This document shows positions 1,728-23,562 of a DNA stretch of 25,953 nucleotides, piece by piece. How positions within the stretch are numbered: position 1 is the stretch's first letter; each line of letters opens with the position of its first letter. The DNA is taken from IMG/VR virus record IMGVR_UViG_3300002835_008928, positions 1-25,953 of that record; one strand, given 5' to 3'. Under the pieces are notes generated by a model. That model had not been told where the DNA came from. It searched no databases and was given only the letters and a program-made list of their open reading frames with translations. Both the position numbers and the translations under genes were made by a program. The DNA is from a virus.

Positions 1728-1735
1728 TTATTTAG
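1728..1735 (-). promoter_or_regulatory. CTAAATAA late-promoter-like motif, doubtful
   Basis: Read on the minus strand, CTAAATAA overlaps the stop codon of the 735-residue fibre gene. It resembles the T4-type late -10 element (TATAAATA) and its CTAAATA variant. A late start about six bases downstream would leave almost no leader before the ATG at 1718, so it may be chance in AT-rich spacer. Confidence 0.2.
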
Positions 1736-3939
1736 AATGGCTGTATTCCTCCACCACCATCTGTGCCACCTGAAGTTGCTCCACTCAATTTTATAGCCCA
1801 ACCATTAATCCAAAAAGTATTGACAAAATAATCACTCCAATTTAGATTTTTAAATGTTCCAGATTGAGCTCCAACATTTGTACCTTGTTTAATAACAAAT
1901 TGATTGCCGGAAACATCATTTACAAAACCAAAATAAGTAAGTGAAGTTCCAATCGAACCACTGCTATCCAAATCATACAATAGTTCATTATAAATTAAAA
2001 ATGTTCCACTTCCAAGAGTATATCCTTGTGCACCACCCAAAGAATCTCCACGAAGAGACCAAGAAGTAATTCCTCCTATTCCAGATCCAGAAACTGGAAG
2101 AGGCATAGAAATTGTATTTGGTTTAGCCAAAGTCCAACCACCATTACGCATTGCTATAATATCAGCAGTAACACCGAGAGGTCTTAGATCAGGAATAAAT
2201 GTTGATCCACCTCCACCACCAGAAACAGTTGAACTTATTGTAAATGTTGCACCACAGGCTCCAGTTATAGTAGAAAAGGTTATACCTGTTCCTGCACAAA
2301 GACCAATAATACCGGTAAAACCAGCTATGCTAATAACATAATTTGTTGGCATTGGCCCGGTGGGCCCTGTCGCTCCTGTAGCTCCGGTGTTTCCTTGAAT
2401 GCCTTGGATGCCTTGTATGCCTTGGGCACCAGTTCCTCCAGTGGCGCCAGTGGCTCCTGTAGCACCAAAGCCTCCAATTGTTCCAATTACAAGAGTATTG
2501 CCGACTGAACTAATTGTAATATATTGACTTCCAGAAATTCCAACAGTTCCAGTTAAACCATTTATAGTAGAAATTCCAGTAACATTTCCAACAGAACCAT
2601 TAAAACTCAATACACCGCTATTTGAAAGAGTAACGGCATTAGAATCACCACCTAAAGCCAATCCACCTGGAGAAACTACAGAAATAGATCTAACACCAGT
2701 ATTTGTTATGGTTACGTTTCCAGTAGAACCAGATAAAGTAATACCTAACCCAGCAACTATTCCAGTAACTCCAGTATTTGTTATGGTTACAGTTCCCGTT
2801 GCTCCTGATACAAAAATACCACTTCCAGCCACAGCTGCAGAAACACCTTGAATTGCTCCTGTTTTTCCGTTATAAAATGTTACAATATTTGGTGCTGAAA
2901 TATTTCCACTAAAAGTTGCACCAGAAGCAGATATTCCTCTTGAAGCAGAAAGTAAGCCTGAAAAGGAAGCGGTTGTACCTACAATGCTACTTTCAACAAA
3001 TGTTGAAGTTTTATTTATATCATTTAATGCTAAATACGATCCAGATACATTTCCAAGTTGAACTGAAGTTGAGGTTAAAATAATCTGATTATCATCATCA
3101 TCAACCAAAAGAAAAGTTCCATCCCCACCACCACTATACTCACCTATCGTGGTAACAGAATTCGTCACATCATTTACGTAAATTATATTATTTGTCGAAT
3201 TAATTTGTGCAGTAGTTACTATAGAAGAGCTTATTCCATTTGTAAAATTTTGTATTGGGCCAAATGTATTTGTAATGCCTGTCGTTACTCCACTAACAGC
3301 TCCCGTTAGTCCATTAAAACTTATTACATAAGTTGTTGGTGTTGGTCCCGTTGGACCTGTATTTCCTTGTGGGCCCTGTATTCCTTGAGGGCCTGCCTGA
3401 CCAATTGGGCCAGCCAAGTTTACATCCCAGTTATTCCAGCTTCCAGAACCAGTAACACCAGAGACAGAAACATTTAAAGTTACACCAGAATAAGTTATCA
3501 CCTGAGCATTAAAGTAATTTGTCAGTCCGCTTGCAACTAAAATATCTTGAACTTTTGTATAGGCTAAACCAGATTCAACTGTTAGTTGTACAGTATTTCC
3601 TATGGTTAAAGTTGATAAGTTTACAGAGGTGTTTGAACTAGTTGCAAAAATATCACCAGGTAAACCGGTAGCACCCGTAGGTCCGGTAGCTCCAGTTGTT
3701 CCTGGAGCACCGGTTGCACCTGTTGGACCTGTTGGACCGGTAGGGCCAGTTGGTCCGGTTGAGCCAGTTGAACCAGTATTTCCCCGTGGTCCCGTAGCAC
3801 CTGTATTCCCTTGCGGACCAGTTCCACCGCCCCCACCAACACCACCTCCCGGTGTAACTTCAACCCTTGCTAAAGCATTGGTATTTACCGTAACATTTAT
3901 TACTGGAATTTCTGTGCTGGAAGAAATAATATCTGCCAC
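1732..3939 (-). CDS. Collagen-like / beta-repeat tail fibre protein, 735 aa
   Basis: The start is GTG at 3939, chosen because GAGG lies seven bases upstream, inside the end of the preceding gene. Collagen-type segments occur at residues 41-94 (18 triplets, Thr-rich), about 177-200 (8 triplets) and about 492-530 (13 triplets). Between them lie Ser/Thr/Gly-rich stretches with a recurring pattern like AGxGI(T/F)xSGxTGxVTITNTG, probably beta-helix or beta-sandwich modules. The last 160 residues are non-repetitive, aromatic-rich (two Trp-containing NW/INGW motifs) and end in a Gly run, suggesting a folded tip domain that may bind receptor; that role is inferred. Its neighbours are another collagen fibre downstream and a small beta-rich protein upstream. 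Specific homologues are not recognised. Confidence 0.85.
2350..2466 (-). repeat. Third collagen block of the 735-aa fibre
   Basis: Thirteen Gly-X-Y triplets are present: GAT three times, GGT, GAQ, GIQ three times, GNT, GAT twice, GPT and GPM. The GIQ triplets form a small tandem run that shows in the DNA as ccttg-atgcc-like repeats. Confidence 0.8.
3340..3411 (-). repeat. Second collagen block of the 735-aa fibre
   Basis: Eight Gly-X-Y triplets ([24 protein letters not shown]) sit between two beta-type modules. They look like a short triple-helical spacer between folded domains. Confidence 0.8.
3658..3819 (-). repeat. First collagen block of the 735-aa fibre
   Basis: Eighteen Gly-X-Y triplets (residues 41-94) consist mainly of GPT, GAT, GNT and GST. 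They are preceded by a Gly-rich hinge. The block has no acidic residue and a single Arg. Confidence 0.85.
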
Positions 3940-8283: not shown

Positions 8284-8291
8284 TATTTATA
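8284..8291 (-). promoter_or_regulatory. TATAAATA late-type promoter upstream of the 45-44-62-regA operon
   Basis: A perfect match to the T4 late -10 consensus TATAAATA is read on the minus strand and overlaps the gp46 stop codon. A start about six bases downstream gives a leader of about 32 bases to the ATG at 8246. It would let the clamp, clamp loader and RegA be transcribed apart from gp46. Confidence 0.5.
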
Positions 8292-10008
8292 TTTGTGTTT
8301 TGATCTTTGAAAAATTATTTTTCTTTTCAAATTGTAAAGATTGATCAAACTTATCTACTAATTGATCTGCCTTGTGACTGATAATAAATATCGAACATTT
8401 ATTCTTCATTTTATTTAAGATTTTTAAGAATGATTCTGTTCCTGCTGCGTCAAGTGAAGAGTCAAGAATCTCATCAAAGATGAGAAGATTGCAGTTCAAA
8501 CTATTCTTCATCTTTGCAATTTCACGCCATGTCAGCAATATGGCAAGGTCGATGCGTTGTTTCTCTCCCTCAGAGAAAGAGGAATATGAGAATGCATCTC
8601 TGTATCGTGACTTGATTGTTTCTTTAAATTCTTCATCGATTGTGAAGTCAACATAGAGATTAAGTTTTCCAAGGAACTTGTTGACGAGTCCATTGATGAT
8701 GGGAACATAATGTTTGATAATGCGACTTTTGAGACCGCTATCTTTGAGAATATCGTAAACCACATCATGGTGAATCTGGTCTGAAATGTAACTTTCAAGT
8801 TTCTTTGAAATTTCATCTTTTTTATCTTCCGATTCTTTCAGGCTTGCTATTAAACTTGTTAAATTGTTAGAAGCTTCCTTTTCTTTCTTATCTTTCTCCA
8901 AAATTTTGTTATTGGATTCAAAATGACCAATTTTATAACTGAGGGCATTTATATCGTTGGCCAGAACCTGAAGCTCTTCATTTAAAGCCTCATAATCGTG
9001 TTTAAACGCCTCCAGTTGCGTTTGTTTTGTCTGGGCGACTCTCAGGGCGTTTTCGCACTCCTCGGCCTTAGAATGCTTCTCTTTTTTATGTTTGTTTCTT
9101 TGCTCTTCGGGTAAATTTTGACCACAGCACTTACATACTGCATTATCTTCCAGAGACTTAAGTTCTTCTAAAATAGTATGTTTGACGGTCTCTAATTTTA
9201 CAAGCATTGCCGGAACATCTTTTAGCCCATCAATTTTTTTCTTCAAAGAAGCCAAATCTTTTGACTTTTTGGTATGTAAGTTTACATCATTGTCTTTTTG
9301 GGCAATAAGTTTTACAATTTCTTCTTTATTAAAGACAATTTTATCTTCAATATTTTTGATATCATCTGCGTTATGAGTTTTTACTTGCTGAATAAATTCT
9401 TTATGCGATTTGATTTTTTCATGTGCTATTCCAAGCAAACTTTGTTGTTCTGCAATAGAAACTTTAAGAGAACCAAGTTGGCCCTTAACATAAAGATTCA
9501 TGTCGGCCAAAATATCAAGTTCAAGCAATCCTTCAATAATCTTTCTCCGTTCAGCTGGAGTAAGTTGCATGAAAGGAATAAAGTTTGATTTACCTAGAAT
9601 TACTACCTGTTTAAACGCGGAGTAATCAAACCCCAAGATTTGCTCTTCAAACATCTCTTGGTAATCTTTTGATTTTGCATTTTGATCTATAAGTTTATCG
9701 TCTTTATAAATCTCAAAAATCTTTGGTGACAACCCACGCCGTACTAGATAGTGACTGTTTGATTTATTGAACTCTATCTCAACAATACAATTTTTTCCAT
9801 TTACCGTATTTACGAGTTGAGGAATATTAATGGGCCTGAATGGTTTTCCAAACAATCCAAAGCACAGCGAATCAAGCAATGCAAATGATTTGCCGTGACC
9901 ATTGGTTCCAGTGACCAATGTGGTTTTTCTTGTGTTTAGATTGATTTCTGAAAAATTAGTTCCAAAAGAACCAAAGTTTTTAAATCGAACAGATAAAAAT
10001 TCTATCAC
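8287..10008 (-). CDS. gp46: Recombination endonuclease subunit gp46 (Rad50/SbcC-like ATPase)
   Basis: The protein has 573 residues (T4 gp46 560). It starts at GTG 10008, which overlaps the gp47 stop (GTGA) and has AAGGA upstream. Walker A is GTNGHGKS at residues 34-41. Long coiled-coil arms flank a zinc-hook CxxC (within VCKCCGQN) near residue 295. The ABC signature FSEGEKQRIDLA lies near residue 478 and Walker B LLIFDEILDSS near 508. With gp47 it forms the Mre11-Rad50-type complex that resects DNA ends for recombination-dependent replication and aids host DNA breakdown. Confidence 0.96.
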   Translation of the reverse strand: MIEFLSVRFKNFGSFGTNFSEINLNTRKTTLVTGTNGHGKSFALLDSLCFGLFGKPFRPINIPQLVNTVNGKNCIVEIEFNKSNSHYLVRRGLSPKIFEIYKDDKLIDQNAKSKDYQEMFEEQILGFDYSAFKQVVILGKSNFIPFMQLTPAERRKIIEGLLELDILADMNLYVKGQLGSLKVSIAEQQSLLGIAHEKIKSHKEFIQQVKTHNADDIKNIEDKIVFNKEEIVKLIAQKDNDVNLHTKKSKDLASLKKKIDGLKDVPAMLVKLETVKHTILEELKSLEDNAVCKCCGQNLPEEQRNKHKKEKHSKAEECENALRVAQTKQTQLEAFKHDYEALNEELQVLANDINALSYKIGHFESNNKILEKDKKEKEASNNLTSLIASLKESEDKKDEISKKLESYISDQIHHDVVYDILKDSGLKSRIIKHYVPIINGLVNKFLGKLNLYVDFTIDEEFKETIKSRYRDAFSYSSFSEGEKQRIDLAILLTWREIAKMKNSLNCNLLIFDEILDSSLDAAGTESFLKILNKMKNKCSIFIISHKADQLVDKFDQSLQFEKKNNFSKIKTQI

Positions 10009-11670: not shown

Positions 11671-12912
11671 TTACAGCAAATACATATTAAAATTTTCTGG
11701 GGGCTGTTCCAATTCTTTTATATTTTTTAATTTAATATTTAATTCTTTAAATTGTGGATTGTTTTTTTCTATTTCTAAAAAGAAATTCCAAGCTAAAACT
11801 ATTATAATATCTGGTTTATTAATTGAAATAATATCTTTTGAGTAAATTGGAATATTTATACCAGGTATAATTTTATTATGTTTTAATTTATTATCTTCTA
11901 CCACATAGTCTATTATTTTATTATCAATTTGATAAAAATTTAATGCGGTTGTAGCTTTTGCCGGGGCACCATAACCAACTAATTTATATCCATCTTTTTT
12001 TAAAGTTACTATATTCTGTGATATATTATGTTTAACTCTTTTGATTCTTTCCCCGAAACTTCTGTAAGCGTCAAACGATGTAAATCCTTCGTTTATTTCT
12101 TTTTGTATAAAATTTGATACCGAAGAAGAAATATATTTTGGTTTATTTTGAACATAAACTCTAATCGAACCTCCGTGTGTTGGTATGTGTTCGACATCTA
12201 CCACAGTATATCCATGTTTATTGAAAAAATATGATAAAGATGACACGCTCCAATAACTTACATGTTCGTGGTAAATATTATCAAAAGTAAGATCCTTTAC
12301 GGTATCATAAACATATTGAACTTCAACAACAAAAGTACCATCTTCTTTTAATAATTTAAACACACCTTTAACGATATTATCAATATCAGGTGAATGTGCA
12401 AAAACATTCGATGCTGTCACCAAATCCACTTTTCCTAATTTCTGTAATATCTTTTCTGCTACATCTTCATTAAAATAAGCTTGCATTACATCAATGCCTT
12501 TGCTTTCAACTATAGGAATAATATTACTAGCTGGGTCAACACCAAATACCTTTATACCCATTTCTTTAAATGGAATTAATGCTATTCCATCATTGCAGCC
12601 AATATCCAAAACGCATGAATCCGAGGTTAATTTAAAACGCTCTGCATATTTTTGTGCTGCTTCTCTAAAATGATTTTGAAAACTTTTAGTAGTAGATGAT
12701 GTATATAAATACGTATCAAAAAGTTTATTAGAAGGAACAGAATAAGATAACTGACAATAATGACAATTATTGCAATATAAAACTTCTAAAGGATATAATT
12801 CTGCTGTTTCTTGATTATCATTCAATAAATTATTGGCTAAAGGGGACTTGCCCAAATCAATAACACTTTTTAAGTTTTTGTTGCCACAGCAACGACACGA
12901 AGATTCTATCAT
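11671..12912 (-). CDS. Zinc-containing SAM-dependent sugar C-methyltransferase
   Basis: The protein has 413 residues. ATG 12912 is preferred because AAAAAGGA lies at good spacing; an in-frame ATG nine codons upstream overlaps the previous gene. It has the three-part layout of TDP-keto-sugar 3-C-methyltransferases (NovU/TylC3 type): a zinc site C6-x2-C9 and C47-x2-C50, a SAM-binding fold with VLDIGCNDG at 101-109, a HEHVSYWS motif in the middle, and a C-terminal domain with GYGAPAKATTAL. The family methylates a carbon next to a keto group on nucleotide sugars and so makes branched sugars. The exact substrate is unknown. It is the last gene of the glycan block. Confidence 0.9.
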   Translation of the reverse strand: MIESSCRCCGNKNLKSVIDLGKSPLANNLLNDNQETAELYPLEVLYCNNCHYCQLSYSVPSNKLFDTYLYTSSTTKSFQNHFREAAQKYAERFKLTSDSCVLDIGCNDGIALIPFKEMGIKVFGVDPASNIIPIVESKGIDVMQAYFNEDVAEKILQKLGKVDLVTASNVFAHSPDIDNIVKGVFKLLKEDGTFVVEVQYVYDTVKDLTFDNIYHEHVSYWSVSSLSYFFNKHGYTVVDVEHIPTHGGSIRVYVQNKPKYISSSVSNFIQKEINEGFTSFDAYRSFGERIKRVKHNISQNIVTLKKDGYKLVGYGAPAKATTALNFYQIDNKIIDYVVEDNKLKHNKIIPGINIPIYSKDIISINKPDIIIVLAWNFFLEIEKNNPQFKELNIKLKNIKELEQPPENFNMYLL

Positions 12913-12913
12913 A

Positions 12914-13816
12914 TTATTTCCTTTTTGTTCTCCTGACATTTATAACAATTTTATCATAATTGTCAATTATATCATTGTATATTGTGTTAACGCTATCATT
13001 AAATTTAAAATTATAATCTGTTTCAAAAAGTTTATTTGAACAATTAAAACTATAATTTGTAGTAATTTTATTTTCTATTATTAATTCGCAACCTGTTAAT
13101 TTTTTTATTTTTTCCCCAAATTCAATAATTTTTAAATTAATTGATGTGAGATTGTAAATTTTATTTTTAAAGTTTTCTTGATTAATTAAAACTTCTATAG
13201 ATCTACACAAATCATTTAATCCAAGAACAGAACGCATATTATTTGGATTTGAAATATTAATTTTTTTATTAAAAGTGGCATTGACAGCAATTGAATTTAA
13301 TAAATTTTCAAATCTAAAATTTTTAGAAAAACCACCAACAGAACCAAATCTCAAACCTATTAATTTTTTTTCTGGATATAAATATGCTATTTGTTCATTG
13401 CATAGTTTAGTATAATCATAAAAATTCACGGGCTGATTTAATTTATAATTTTCATCTACTAATTCATCGTTATGTCCATATATTGCAGCACTACTGCTAT
13501 ATAAAAGCGTTTGATTGTGGTTTAATTTTTCTATTAATTTTATATATTTTACTACATTGTTTTCAAATGGATCTGTTAAACTTTCTTCGCACATCGATAC
13601 TGTGGAATGACCAGCCAGTAAAATAATATGCGTGTAATTTGATAAAAATTTTTCTGATAAATTATCAAAATCCTCTACAATAGTTTCTGGATATAAATTT
13701 TTATACCAACAAGAATCTACATTTGTAACTTGATATTTTTTTTCAAGTAAATAATCGTATAATCTAGATCCAATATATCCATTACCACCAATCAATAATA
13801 TTTTTTTATTTTTCAT
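12914..13816 (-). CDS. NAD(P)-dependent sugar epimerase/dehydratase (SDR family)
   Basis: The protein has 300 residues. The nucleotide-binding motif GGNGYIG lies at 10-16, the serine motif YSSSAAIYG at 106-114 and the catalytic Y133-x3-K137 in the order expected for extended SDR enzymes acting on nucleotide sugars. The C-terminal part is diverged, so substrate (epimerase, dehydratase or reductase) cannot be named. Its stop is one base before the ATG of the C-methyltransferase, which fits a keto-sugar intermediate passing between the two enzymes; that link is inferred. Confidence 0.88.
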   Translation of the reverse strand: MKNKKILLIGGNGYIGSRLYDYLLEKKYQVTNVDSCWYKNLYPETIVEDFDNLSEKFLSNYTHIILLAGHSTVSMCEESLTDPFENNVVKYIKLIEKLNHNQTLLYSSSAAIYGHNDELVDENYKLNQPVNFYDYTKLCNEQIAYLYPEKKLIGLRFGSVGGFSKNFRFENLLNSIAVNATFNKKINISNPNNMRSVLGLNDLCRSIEVLINQENFKNKIYNLTSINLKIIEFGEKIKKLTGCELIIENKITTNYSFNCSNKLFETDYNFKFNDSVNTIYNDIIDNYDKIVINVRRTKRK

Positions 13817-14253
13817 TAAAAATCACACTTATAAAAAAGAGGATAATCTGTGCAAATACCAAAACACCGAATACTCTTTATATTTATATTAGTTTTATCA
13901 GACAAAACACATATTCCGTATCTATTTACATAACCGGGAAAACACCAAGGTATACCTTTACTTGTTAAAGTGTAATTATCTGTTTGGTGCCAAAAATAAT
14001 GCAAATTATCTGCTTTCATTTGTTCCATTGCATTTATATTCTTGGCATGAAACCATCCCGGCAAAGAATAAAGAAATTCTAAAGATACTTTATACGAAGG
14101 ATTATCGTGACCTAAAAAATATTGACCGTCTATCACCCAAACATCAACTTCTACATCAAATCCATTTTCTACAGCTTTGATTAAATAATTTGGTTGATTT
14201 TCAAATGCAGGATTTGAACCATTTAAATTACCTCTATGTGCTATTATTTTCAT
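13816..14253 (-). CDS. Short GDPD-like phosphodiesterase, 145 aa
   Basis: The N-terminus IIAHRGN (H6-R7-G8), ExD in VEVDVW (E36, D38) and GHD near residue 49 match the catalytic positions of glycerophosphodiester phosphodiesterases. Those enzymes are usually about 240 residues or more with a full TIM barrel, and this one ends after 145, so the second half of the barrel is missing or much reduced. The frame is intact and coupled at both ends, so it does not look decayed. It might cleave or handle a phosphodiester decoration (for example glycerol phosphate) on the glycan; the substrate is not known. Confidence 0.75.
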   Translation of the reverse strand: MKIIAHRGNLNGSNPAFENQPNYLIKAVENGFDVEVDVWVIDGQYFLGHDNPSYKVSLEFLYSLPGWFHAKNINAMEQMKADNLHYFWHQTDNYTLTSKGIPWCFPGYVNRYGICVLSDKTNINIKSIRCFGICTDYPLFYKCDF

Positions 14254-14963
14254 AAAGATTGTAAATATAAATTTAAATCTTCTGGAGTTCCTATCCCATT
14301 CATTTTTTGAACAAAGAAAGGAATAAGCTTTTTATTTTGCTGGATGAATTCATTATACACTGGTGCTATATAAAATTCATTATTTACTCTAATATTTTTA
14401 CGAATCATGTTTTCGGCAGAAGAAACAAATTCCGATCCCTTTCTATACCAATAAATTCCACAAGTTGCAATATCAGATATTGGTTTTTTTTCTGCTACTT
14501 CACAAATTATTTTTTCATTATTTAATTTGACAAATGACCATTTTGAATCTGTTGCATTAAAACAAAAAATAATTCCGTCTACAGAAGTAAATTTTTTTAA
14601 ATATTCAAAGTTTTCTTTTTTATATTCAATATGCTGATCCGAGTTTGCTATAAGTAAATCATCATCATTGTTTATTAATTCTTTAGCCAGTAATGCTGTG
14701 CATGCGGCACCTTCAGTTAATTTATCTACAGCAATTATTGTGCTTTTATTGTTTGTAATTTTGTTTAGTAAAGTTTCAATACTTGGATATTTTTTTAAAT
14801 GTTCTTTTCTTACTAAAAAAATGTATTGTCCATCAAACATCAGATTTTCAACAACCCGTTGTATCATGGGCTTTCCATTTACATCAATTAATGGTTTTGG
14901 TAATTCGTAACCTTGCTTTTGAAATCTGCTTCCTTCTCCTGCCATCGGTATTAAAATTTTCAT
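14250..14963 (-). CDS. Sugar-1-phosphate nucleotidyltransferase
   Basis: The protein has 237 residues. The signature MAGEGSRF followed by LPKPLIDVNGKPMI near the N-terminus is the nucleotide-binding and catalytic region of the NTP_transferase family (GlmU/RfbA/HddC type). ANSDQHI near residue 105 supplies the metal-binding aspartate. It joins an NTP and a sugar-1-phosphate to give an NDP-sugar. Base and sugar specificity cannot be read. It could be the activating enzyme for the heptose-like sugar made by genes at the other end of the block, or for a second sugar. Both ends overlap neighbours by ATGA. Confidence 0.9.
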   Translation of the reverse strand: MKILIPMAGEGSRFQKQGYELPKPLIDVNGKPMIQRVVENLMFDGQYIFLVRKEHLKKYPSIETLLNKITNNKSTIIAVDKLTEGAACTALLAKELINNDDDLLIANSDQHIEYKKENFEYLKKFTSVDGIIFCFNATDSKWSFVKLNNEKIICEVAEKKPISDIATCGIYWYRKGSEFVSSAENMIRKNIRVNNEFYIAPVYNEFIQQNKKLIPFFVQKMNGIGTPEDLNLYLQSL

Positions 14964-15574
14964 AAGCTATTTACTCGTAAATTATAATTGTTTAATGTAA
15001 CTTCGGTTGGGTCTTTTACAATCCATAGATATTTACACACCGAATTTTTAGCTGCTTTTATGCCAGTATTTGAATCTTCTACACACATTACCATATCAGG
15101 AGAAACACATAATTTGTGGACAGCATAATTATAACAGTCCGGAAAAGGTTTATTATTTTCAACATTTTCATTTGTTACCAGCAAATCAATATAAGGAAGC
15201 AAATTACTAACTTCAAGCATTTTACTTGCTGTTATTTTTATAGAATTTGTAACGCATCCTATTTTTATATTTTGTTTTTTTAAATACTCTAATAAAATTA
15301 TTTTTTCATTATCTTGTTTTGTTGATTTTGAAATAATTTCAAGTGTTTTTTCTTGTTTTAATTTCCACACTTTATCTTGATCATTTTGGTTTAAACCAAG
15401 CATATTTAATTTAATTTTAGTTGGCAATCCATTATATTTTGATAAATGGTCTTTTCTTGAAATTTTAAAACCAACTACTTCTTGTAAACTTTCATTCAAT
15501 GCTTCATAATGCCATTCACAAGCGTCTACTAATACTCCATCTAAATCAAATAAAATTGCTTGCAAAAAAATCAT
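14960..15574 (-). CDS. HAD-family sugar phosphatase / phosphoglucomutase-like
   Basis: The protein has 204 residues. Motif I is FDLDGVLVDA (D10, D12), followed by a small helical cap, then VTNS (motif II), a lysine in NKPFPD and CVEDSNTG (motif IV). The cap type and the acid pair fit the beta-phosphoglucomutase branch of the HAD superfamily, whose members are either mutases moving phosphate between C6 and C1 or simple phosphatases. Next to a sugar nucleotidyltransferase, a role in supplying or trimming a sugar phosphate is likely. Confidence 0.87.
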   Translation of the reverse strand: MIFLQAILFDLDGVLVDACEWHYEALNESLQEVVGFKISRKDHLSKYNGLPTKIKLNMLGLNQNDQDKVWKLKQEKTLEIISKSTKQDNEKIILLEYLKKQNIKIGCVTNSIKITASKMLEVSNLLPYIDLLVTNENVENNKPFPDCYNYAVHKLCVSPDMVMCVEDSNTGIKAAKNSVCKYLWIVKDPTEVTLNNYNLRVNSL

Positions 15575-21941: not shown

Positions 21942-22837
21942 TGTGTTTTAACCCAATCTAAAATATGTACAGAAGGTGACCACCCAGTTATTTTACAAAA
22001 TTTTTTATAAGAAGACAAAGTATTTTTTGCTTCTCCTTTTCTTTCTGGTATGTGGACAATATTAGAATCTATTGCTAGTGCTAGGTCTTTTATTTTTACC
22101 GAAGCACCATAACCAATGTTAAATACACCAGCGTTATTTAAAGAATTTTTACTTGACCATAAATGCATACAAGCAATATTAGCAGAAACTACGTCTTTTA
22201 CATAAATAAAATCTCTAGTTTGTAAACCATCTCCAACTATAGTAAGAGGTTCATTATTTGATTTTTGTCGGAAAAAAATTCCAGTTACTAATGCATATTG
22301 GCCTGTGGTTGGTGCTCTCTCACCAAAAACATTAAAATATCTTAAAATACAAGATTTAATCCCATACAATAAATTATAGTTTTTTAATAATAATTCTCCA
22401 CAATATTTTGTTGAAGCATATGGGTTTAAACAATCATCTCTTATCTCTTCTGTGGTTGGCAATTCTTCTGTGAGACCGTATATGGAAGAGGTAGAAGAAA
22501 AAACTAAACCTTCAATTTTATTTTCTTTGCACGCTTCAAGAACATTTAATGTTCCTCCCACGTTTACGTCAACTGCTCTTGTTGGATTTTCTATAGCATT
22601 TTGGAGACGAGATTCTGCTGCAAGGTGAAAACAAAAATTACAACCTCGGGATATTTCTTTCAAGAGCTTTCCATCACAAATGCTAAATTTATGATAAGTA
22701 GCTTTATCATTGTAATAAAAATTTTCATTATTGGCAGAGCAATCATCGACAACAATAACTTCATGTTGCAAATTCACCAAAGCATCTACTAAATGACTTC
22801 CAATAAATCCACACCCACCTGTCACCAATATTTTCAT
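21938..22837 (-). CDS. NAD-dependent nucleotide-sugar epimerase (GalE/WbpP-like SDR)
   Basis: The protein has 299 residues. GGCGFIG at 7-13 binds NAD, FSSTSSIYG near residue 115 and YASTK near residue 140 give the Ser and Tyr-Lys catalytic residues, and RYFNVFGER followed by GDGLQTRDFIYVKDV is the nucleotide-sugar-binding region typical of UDP-glucose or UDP-GlcNAc 4-epimerases. dTDP-glucose dehydratase and GDP-mannose enzymes are less likely by these motifs. It supplies a modified sugar donor to the glycosyltransferases nearby. Confidence 0.92.
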   Translation of the reverse strand: MKILVTGGCGFIGSHLVDALVNLQHEVIVVDDCSANNENFYYNDKATYHKFSICDGKLLKEISRGCNFCFHLAAESRLQNAIENPTRAVDVNVGGTLNVLEACKENKIEGLVFSSTSSIYGLTEELPTTEEIRDDCLNPYASTKYCGELLLKNYNLLYGIKSCILRYFNVFGERAPTTGQYALVTGIFFRQKSNNEPLTIVGDGLQTRDFIYVKDVVSANIACMHLWSSKNSLNNAGVFNIGYGASVKIKDLALAIDSNIVHIPERKGEAKNTLSSYKKFCKITGWSPSVHILDWVKTQ

Positions 22838-23562
22838 TTTATAAACTCCAAATATGATTCACTAATTTTTTTCTTCAAATCCGTGGTCGAATAACCATGA
22901 TCTCTATCAGTATATATAATCTTTATTGGAAGATAATCGGCGGTATAATGTTTATTTTTATAATCATCTCCCAAAAATCTTACATCGTAATTTCCAACTT
23001 CTAAAAATACTGCAAGATCTGATTCACTTTCGTAAGAAATAACAGAATCAATATATTTTATTGAATAAAGAATTTCTATTCTTTCCTGTAAAGAGTGAAT
23101 AGGCTTCATTTTATTTCTTTCAGATGATGGATTATCATGCAGTAATACTGTTAAATGATCACAGTGCTCTTTGCAAAACTTAAACAAACGACAATATCCT
23201 GGATGTATTAAATCAAATGCTCCTGCCACCACTCCATAAATTCCACAATTATTTTTTCTCCAGTCTACAGCATTTATTGCTTTATCATCAACAACTATAT
23301 CGTATGTTGGTTTTTTATTCATGATAAGTTCATGATATTTTAAATTCCATTCTTTTAACTGTTTTTTTGTAAGTTCGGTCCAATCTATCCCAGAACTTGA
23401 TCCTCTACCAGTAAAAATTAAAATCTTATTTCCGGCAGAATATAATTCATTAACTTTGTTAATTGCACGCGTTAAAGGTTTAGCAGTGGCATAATTGCCA
23501 TCAATTGCCTTTGTGCAAAGAGTTTCATCTAAATCAAAGCAATATATTTTTTTATTTATCAT
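22834..23562 (-). CDS. Fusion: HAD sugar phosphatase + cytidylyltransferase-like domain
   Basis: The protein has 242 residues. Residues 1-103 form a capless HAD phosphatase of the EcbF/BcbF capsule type: FDLDETL with D10 and D12, FTGRG at 50-54, DDKAIN at 92-97. Residues 107-242 form a CTP_transf_like domain: GAFDLIHPG at 114-122, and STT at 225-227 in place of the ISTT motif. The linker is only a few residues. The usual HxGH reads HPGY, so the second histidine is Tyr123. Phosphatase plus nucleotidyltransferase are successive steps in making NDP-heptose and similar sugars, so the fusion could carry out both. The isomerase and kinase lie just upstream, all coupled by ATGA overlaps. Confidence 0.88.
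   Translation of the reverse strand: MINKKIYCFDLDETLCTKAIDGNYATAKPLTRAINKVNELYSAGNKILIFTGRGSSSGIDWTELTKKQLKEWNLKYHELIMNKKPTYDIVVDDKAINAVDWRKNNCGIYGVVAGAFDLIHPGYCRLFKFCKEHCDHLTVLLHDNPSSERNKMKPIHSLQERIEILYSIKYIDSVISYESESDLAVFLEVGNYDVRFLGDDYKNKHYTADYLPIKIIYTDRDHGYSTTDLKKKISESYLEFIK

Follow-up and report, generated by a model that had tools for sequence, protein, structure and literature searches.

HldE (RfaE) carries two steps of NDP-heptose synthesis on one chain, in which a PfkB kinase is joined to a C-terminal HIGH-type nucleotidyltransferase (NTase), and the HxGH motif of the E. coli enzyme reads HAGH. A survey by Tang et al. (Science 2024, as described in PMC11461863 and PMC11573728), which included viruses, dealt with heptose NTases (HENases), which work in a four-step isomerase-kinase-phosphatase-NTase relay. 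The architectures given there are mono-domain, kinase/NTase and isomerase/kinase/NTase, with no phosphatase/NTase protein among them, and viruses were reported to lack the phosphatase. The beta anomer is the substrate of the HIGH-type heptose NTases characterised so far (PMC11573728), while Campylobacter HddA yields heptose alpha-1,7-bisphosphate (PMC10680097). GmhB, the heptose-1,7-bisphosphate 7-phosphatase, is a HAD-fold protein of 191 aa encoded by a separate gene. TagD (PDB 1coz) has an intact HxGH, carries no HAD domain and belongs to a teichoic-acid context. AfhF of phage HY126 (PDB 9iqw), a D-arabinose 1,5-diphosphate phosphatase according to the title of its entry, has a pentose substrate and is encoded by a separate gene in DNA-modification phages, with a GT-A-type pyrophosphorylase as its partner in related phages. 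For Synechococcus phage SynMITS9220M01, the genome paper mentions only a kinase, an isomerase and an epimerase (PMC7378029). We found no prior description of a phosphatase/NTase fusion in the literature.

The window, i.e., the whole stretch of viral DNA analysed here (25,953 nt; Table 1), contains a region at about 5.6-11.6 kb that reads as T4-like replication genes, among which the protein encoded at 8287-10008 showed a 42% match to gp46 of cyanophage S-ShM2. The minus strand from about 11.7 to 25.7 kb is a glycan island, which encodes glycosyltransferases of the GT10, GT11 and GT25 types as well as methyltransferases and sugar-nucleotide enzymes. One of its genes (11671-12939, minus strand) encodes a nucleotide-sugar-type C-methyltransferase with Methyltransf_13/23/14 domains, a hint that the phage glycan may include sugars with branches or methyl groups. 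The window also holds a gene (1732-3939, minus strand) for a 735-aa collagen-like protein with a GPTGPT repeat, which is probably a tail or fibre protein. No Rfam or tRNA feature was found in the 25,953 bases. The first-pass annotation had described the gene in question as one two-domain chain with almost no linker, and both statements agree with our results. The gene is a single frame on the minus strand, and AlphaFold2 (55 homologs; mean pLDDT 90.4, pTM 0.69) predicted two domains, in which a helix at residues 98-105 is followed by a strand at 109-114, leaving a linker of about 3-4 residues.

Table 1. Features of the window discussed in the text.
Feature	Position	Strand	Evidence
Source window, 25,953 nt	IMGVR_UViG_3300002835_008928, positions 1 to 25,953		Virus record
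Fusion gene (242 aa) for HAD phosphatase and cytidylyltransferase-like domains	22834..23562	-	Single ORF, ATG to stop; domain profiles; AlphaFold2; homologs
HAD phosphatase domain, residues 1-104	23251..23562	-	PHROG 1238 and PDB 9iqw matches
Cytidylyltransferase-like domain, residues ~107-242	22837..23244	-	PF01467; TagD 1coz and HldC 5xf2 structural matches
HPGY (residues 120-123) replacing HxGH	23194..23205	-	Aligned rows; NTase tree
RDHGYSTT (residues 220-227), cytidylyltransferase-type RxxGxSTT signature	22882..22905	-	Signature of PMC6060094
GmhA-like SIS-domain isomerase, 169 aa	23559..24068	-	4-base overlap with fusion gene; NCBIfam gmhA
HddA-like GHMP kinase, 312 aa	24065..25003	-	4-base overlap with isomerase gene; NCBIfam HddA
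SDR epimerase, 299 aa	21938..22837	-	4-base overlap with fusion gene; Pfam Epimerase

The N-terminal half matched PHROG 1238 over residues 3-104 (E 2e-25), NCBIfam HAD-SF-IIIA (E 6e-5) and, over residues 7-101, the closest solved HAD, AfhF (E 6.5e-11 with the single sequence and 5.6e-23 with a family profile). The complete HAD superfamily motif set (DxD, Thr, Lys, DD) is present, and D10, D12, T51, K84, D92 and D93 were invariant in 62 of 62 aligned rows (60 distinct). The domain had been called EcbF/BcbF-type. The HAD phosphatase part of this name was borne out, but the family label is only approximate, as EcbF-BcbF (TIGR01689) gave E 0.004 and 17.1 bits, far under its curated cut-off of 162. 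GmhB, whose step the HAD domain would carry out, aligned with the HAD half at 20.8 bits over 39 residues only and is the larger protein. With AfhF the fusion shares a homologous HAD domain, a proposed sugar bisphosphate chemistry and a setting in a phage nucleotide-sugar operon. A tree of the HAD domains, built on about 100 columns and with very long branches, did not recover the branching.

EcbF-like HADs were found in non-heptose settings as well, i.e., NeuB/NeuA-like clusters and a choline-kinase-like fusion, and therefore the HAD family alone is no proof of heptose. In an Agathobaculum phage (L004:1314-2411), an EcbF-like HAD and a choline-kinase-like domain share one ORF, which a cytidylyltransferase-like gene adjoins. 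In two cyanobacteria (G173 and G314), one protein combines a HAD with a GmhA-like SIS domain, next to a gene that looks NeuB-like by eye, and G173 encodes a further HAD joined to a domain that looks NeuA-like by eye (L218:7237-8157, L219:5723-6622 and L218:837-1901). The HAD-GmhA fusions of the two cyanobacteria (L107, L108) were considered as additional linkage but were not counted as heptose evidence because NeuB-like genes, and in G173 also a NeuA-like one, adjoin them. From these cyanobacterial fusions, the HAD looks like a phosphatase module that may be mixed and matched with different partners. On four viral contigs (L074:4013-5172, L076, L086 and L088), a 281-aa protein joins an RpiB/LacAB-type isomerase to a HIGH NTase with HSGH, and an EcbF-like HAD gene lies directly 5' of it, with a gap of about 10 bases or an overlap. 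Small HADs annotated as phosphoheptose isomerase in many T4-like and cyanophage records (PHROG 1238; L003:7086-7430; L136:3971-4357) are AfhF-related HAD proteins and not SIS isomerases.

The C-terminal half belongs to the cytidylyltransferase-like (HIGH) superfamily, both by its Pfam score (CTP_transf_like, PF01467; residues 112-204, E 7.6e-11, 42.8 bits against a gathering threshold of 21) and by its Rossmann-type fold. By structural re-alignment, with a list that barely tested the HAD half, the NTase half superimposed on TagD with Z 18.1 (125 residues, rmsd 2.0, 30% identity) and on Burkholderia HldC (5xf2) with Z 15.8. The RfaE2 profile gave E 4e-13 and 49.4 bits, under its cut-off of 181.5, and no PfkB kinase is present. 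An RxxGxSTT-type signature has been described for cytidylyltransferases (PMC6060094). RDHGYSTT of the window protein keeps R, G, S, T and T of the RTEG(I/V)ST(S/T) form found in GCT/CCT/ECT, with TE replaced by DH, and R220 and H222 occurred in 61 of 61 rows reaching those positions. This signature is shared with TagD, the closest fold, and from these two features CTP is favoured as the nucleotide. In contrast to the HENases, the STTR5 motif (F/L)XXGRSTT is absent, the residue at motif position 5 being Tyr and not Arg.

As TagD is the best match by profile and by structure, and the region 14250-15574 of the window encodes another sugar nucleotidyltransferase together with a HAD_2 protein, the C-terminal domain might be a TagD-like CTP:glycerol-3-phosphate (or polyol-phosphate) cytidylyltransferase, with a housekeeping role for the HAD and heptose activation by the NTP_transferase at 14250-14963. 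We consider this very unlikely. The score with the TagD equivalog (TIGR01518) was 60 bits, far below the cut-off of 165.4, the fused gene lies within a heptose gene set as described below, the NTase is fused to a heptose-type kinase or isomerase elsewhere, and homologs of the proteins starting at 14250 and 14960 were missing from nearly all fusion loci within a flank of a few kb. The genes at 14250-14963 and 14960-15574 (minus strand) are an adjacent pair for a GT-A NTP_transferase and a HAD_2 (beta-phosphoglucomutase-like) protein, and on another contig a single 455-aa ORF (L066:7305-8669) unites homologs of both, an unrelated second phosphatase-nucleotidyltransferase fusion.

Instead of an intact HxGH, the window protein has HPGY, the second His being Tyr123, as the first-pass annotation had pointed out with the remark that activity may differ or be lost. 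H120 was found in 62 of 62 aligned rows, and position 123 was Y in 57 and H in 5 of them. The NTase tree, built from 133 domains, showed a single H/Y change at this position, and the HPGY clade comprised 64 rows (SH-aLRT 94). Both domains are under purifying selection, with pN of about 0.14-0.29 against pS of 0.60-0.85 between the window and seven relatives. Because HPGY is conserved through one clade and the domain is maintained, Tyr123 is regarded as a fixed lineage trait and not as decay. Eukaryotic tyrosyl-tRNA synthetases, whose HIGH motif has the form HxxY, are active and provide a precedent. On the other hand, the C. ammoniagenes FAD synthetase is inactive when the second His of HxGH is replaced by Ala or Asp (PMC3509593), and by analogy the NTase domain could be catalytically dead, so that only the phosphatase would act and the C-terminal part would serve as a scaffold or a sugar-phosphate-binding module. 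There is little likelihood of this, as the single origin and retention of HPGY, the selection on the domain and the invariance of the other signature residues all argue against a loss of activity, although an altered activity is possible. In addition, the cyanobacterial copy at L106:1498-2238 (minus strand) has lost Thr, Lys and DD of the HAD motifs but kept its HPGY NTase half intact, and HPGY domains without a fused HAD exist, either fused to a kinase or an isomerase or standing alone. A further nucleotidyltransferase domain, with HAGH, is fused to a UDP-glucose/GDP-mannose dehydrogenase-type protein on a viral contig (L178:2206-3414).

In the window, the genes follow one another in the order HddA-like GHMP kinase, GmhA-like isomerase, fusion and SDR epimerase (Table 1). 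Among the matches listed, same-strand HddA-like, GmhA-like and epimerase genes were present at 59 of the 62 fusion loci with enough flank, and at these 59 loci an isomerase, a kinase, a phosphatase and an NTase, the set expected of an NDP-heptose module, occur together; the isomerase gene was directly upstream of the fusion in 54 of the 62. The isomerase matched NCBIfam gmhA (1.3e-18), and 13 of its 15 PDB matches were phosphoheptose isomerases, the two weakest being DiaA; no arabinose-5-phosphate isomerase model was among its hits. The kinase matched NCBIfam HddA (8.7e-22), with the heptose kinases 3k85 and 4n3o as the best PDB matches. The epimerase matched Pfam Epimerase (3.7e-54) and the profiles of GalE (1e-45) and ADP-heptose 6-epimerase (3e-32).

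The HPGY NTase domain also occurs with other members of this gene set. A 595-kb phage (LR756511; L005) has it fused to an HddA-like kinase (458 aa), and on a Pacearchaeota MAG contig (L095) its fusion partner is a GmhA-like isomerase (310 aa). Each of these fusions rests on one contig, since scans with single queries gave no further HddA-NTase or GmhA-NTase fusions. In Prochlorococcus phage P-SSM2, an NTase, a PfkB kinase and a HAD are three separate neighbouring genes. One contig (L094) holds both a PfkB set and the HddA module, which suggests that the two have different products.

The relationship to AfhF raises the alternative that the sugar activated by the module is not a heptose but a pentose (D-arabinose, for instance) or some other phosphorylated sugar, which might serve DNA hypermodification, with four steps that follow the pattern of the arabinose pathway in RB69-like phages. 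Operons of the order isomerase-NTase-HAD contain the AfhF relatives of RB69-like and Acinetobacter phages, and the RB69-like operon adjoins a gene annotated as thymidylate synthase. This alternative is unlikely, as the isomerase matches GmhA/phosphoheptose isomerases and not arabinose-5-phosphate isomerases, the kinase matches heptose kinases, the NTase is HIGH-type whereas a sugar pyrophosphorylase is annotated in the arabinose phages, and the module is also found in a polysaccharide-type island of Prochlorococcus.

The first survey of homologs gave at least 73 fused ORFs (at least 61 distinct), open and without internal stops, and the final tally was at least 76 distinct fused proteins; the homolog counts are lower bounds. 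A stop or frameshift error separating two genes, which had been named as a result that would overturn the fusion, is excluded by these distinct open homologs, and an assembly frameshift or stop-loss artefact was rejected on the same grounds. Scans of viral contigs gave full-length fusions that were identical to the window protein, 75% and 62% identical, and down to 43% identical among the matches listed. The fused homologs are mostly on viral contigs, with additional copies in cyanophage SynMITS9220M01 and on a few bacterial contigs. The SynMITS9220M01 protein (SynMITS9220M01_206, QJT70212.1) has the same fusion and gene order and is 47% identical over 96%, but was deposited as a hypothetical protein. 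Another protein of this phage, annotated as phosphatase (L002:1257-2411), is an NTP_transferase fused to a LacAB_rpiB isomerase.

A survey of bacteria had also been proposed, and it showed that the fusion is present in few cellular genomes and is rare. Among 386 genomes from the cyanobacterial phylum, 2 carried it, the seed being one of the two; it was found in 1 of 296 genomes of the phylum of an Acidimicrobiaceae MAG, which was the seed itself, and in 0 of 398, 0 of 395 and 0 of 279 genomes of three further phyla. One Prochlorococcus copy (L091) lies in surroundings that by eye look like a host polysaccharide island, with sugar transferase-type and cobalamin-type genes, and had no near match among the phage records. 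Five fused proteins with H[AS]GH form their own group (support 99) and fell among stand-alone NTases on a quick tree. This placement would fit repeated independent HAD-NTase fusion, but a single clade of these proteins with the HPGY group was not rejected (p-AU 0.76), so that one fusion event or more than one may lie behind the family.

We propose, with a probability of about 0.72, that the fusion is a heptose-1,7-bisphosphate 7-phosphatase joined to a heptose-1-phosphate NTase and covers the last two steps of a phage nucleotide-heptose pathway. The first-pass annotation had likewise read a phosphatase followed by a HIGH-superfamily NTase in a heptose-type pathway, and the four-gene context makes the predicted heptose role much stronger than could be known at that time. 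The GmhA-like isomerase would convert sedoheptulose 7-phosphate to heptose 7-phosphate, and the HddA-like kinase would phosphorylate C1. The HAD domain would then strip the 7-phosphate with Asp10 as the nucleophile, and the C-terminal domain, to which the intermediate may be channelled, would couple a nucleotide, most probably CMP derived from CTP, to heptose 1-phosphate. In the final step the NDP-heptose would be modified by the epimerase, and the product may supply the glycosyltransferases encoded beside the module for LPS, O-antigen or virion glycans. As HddA makes the alpha-1,7-bisphosphate, the product would be an NDP-alpha-heptose. The points against the proposed heptose function are this alpha product in view of the beta-using HIGH-type NTases, the HPGY motif, the presence of EcbF-like HADs in non-heptose settings, and the decay of the HAD motifs in the L106 copy.

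Two known enzyme types are newly joined in this protein, and its function is strongly suggested by gene context. As in HldE, one chain with a C-terminal HIGH-type NTase would serve two NDP-heptose steps. The fusion differs from HldE, as had been noticed at the outset, in having a HAD phosphatase in place of the PfkB kinase, and also in having HPGY and RxxGxSTT and in working beside an HddA-like GHMP kinase. Since the heptose NTases described in PMC11461863 and PMC11573728 have the three architectures given above, phosphatase/NTase represents, relative to these papers, a new architecture in a known type of pathway. The natural HxGY variant offers a setting to test the weight of the second histidine of HxGH. 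Our results also suggest a phosphatase function for the small HADs that many phage records label as phosphoheptose isomerase. The fusion is a candidate for the phosphatase step that the survey of Tang et al. was reported not to have found in viruses, and it is predicted that phages can hold the whole four-step heptose route as one compact operon. More tentatively, and with some doubt on our side, the module may represent a third activated-heptose route, from the HddA-type alpha-1,7-bisphosphate to CDP-alpha-heptose by a small HAD and a HIGH-type HxGY NTase. If true, this route would combine the kinase of the alpha (GDP) route with the nucleotidyltransferase type of the beta (ADP) route, in a variant active site, and would provide the viral phosphatase missing from the published survey.
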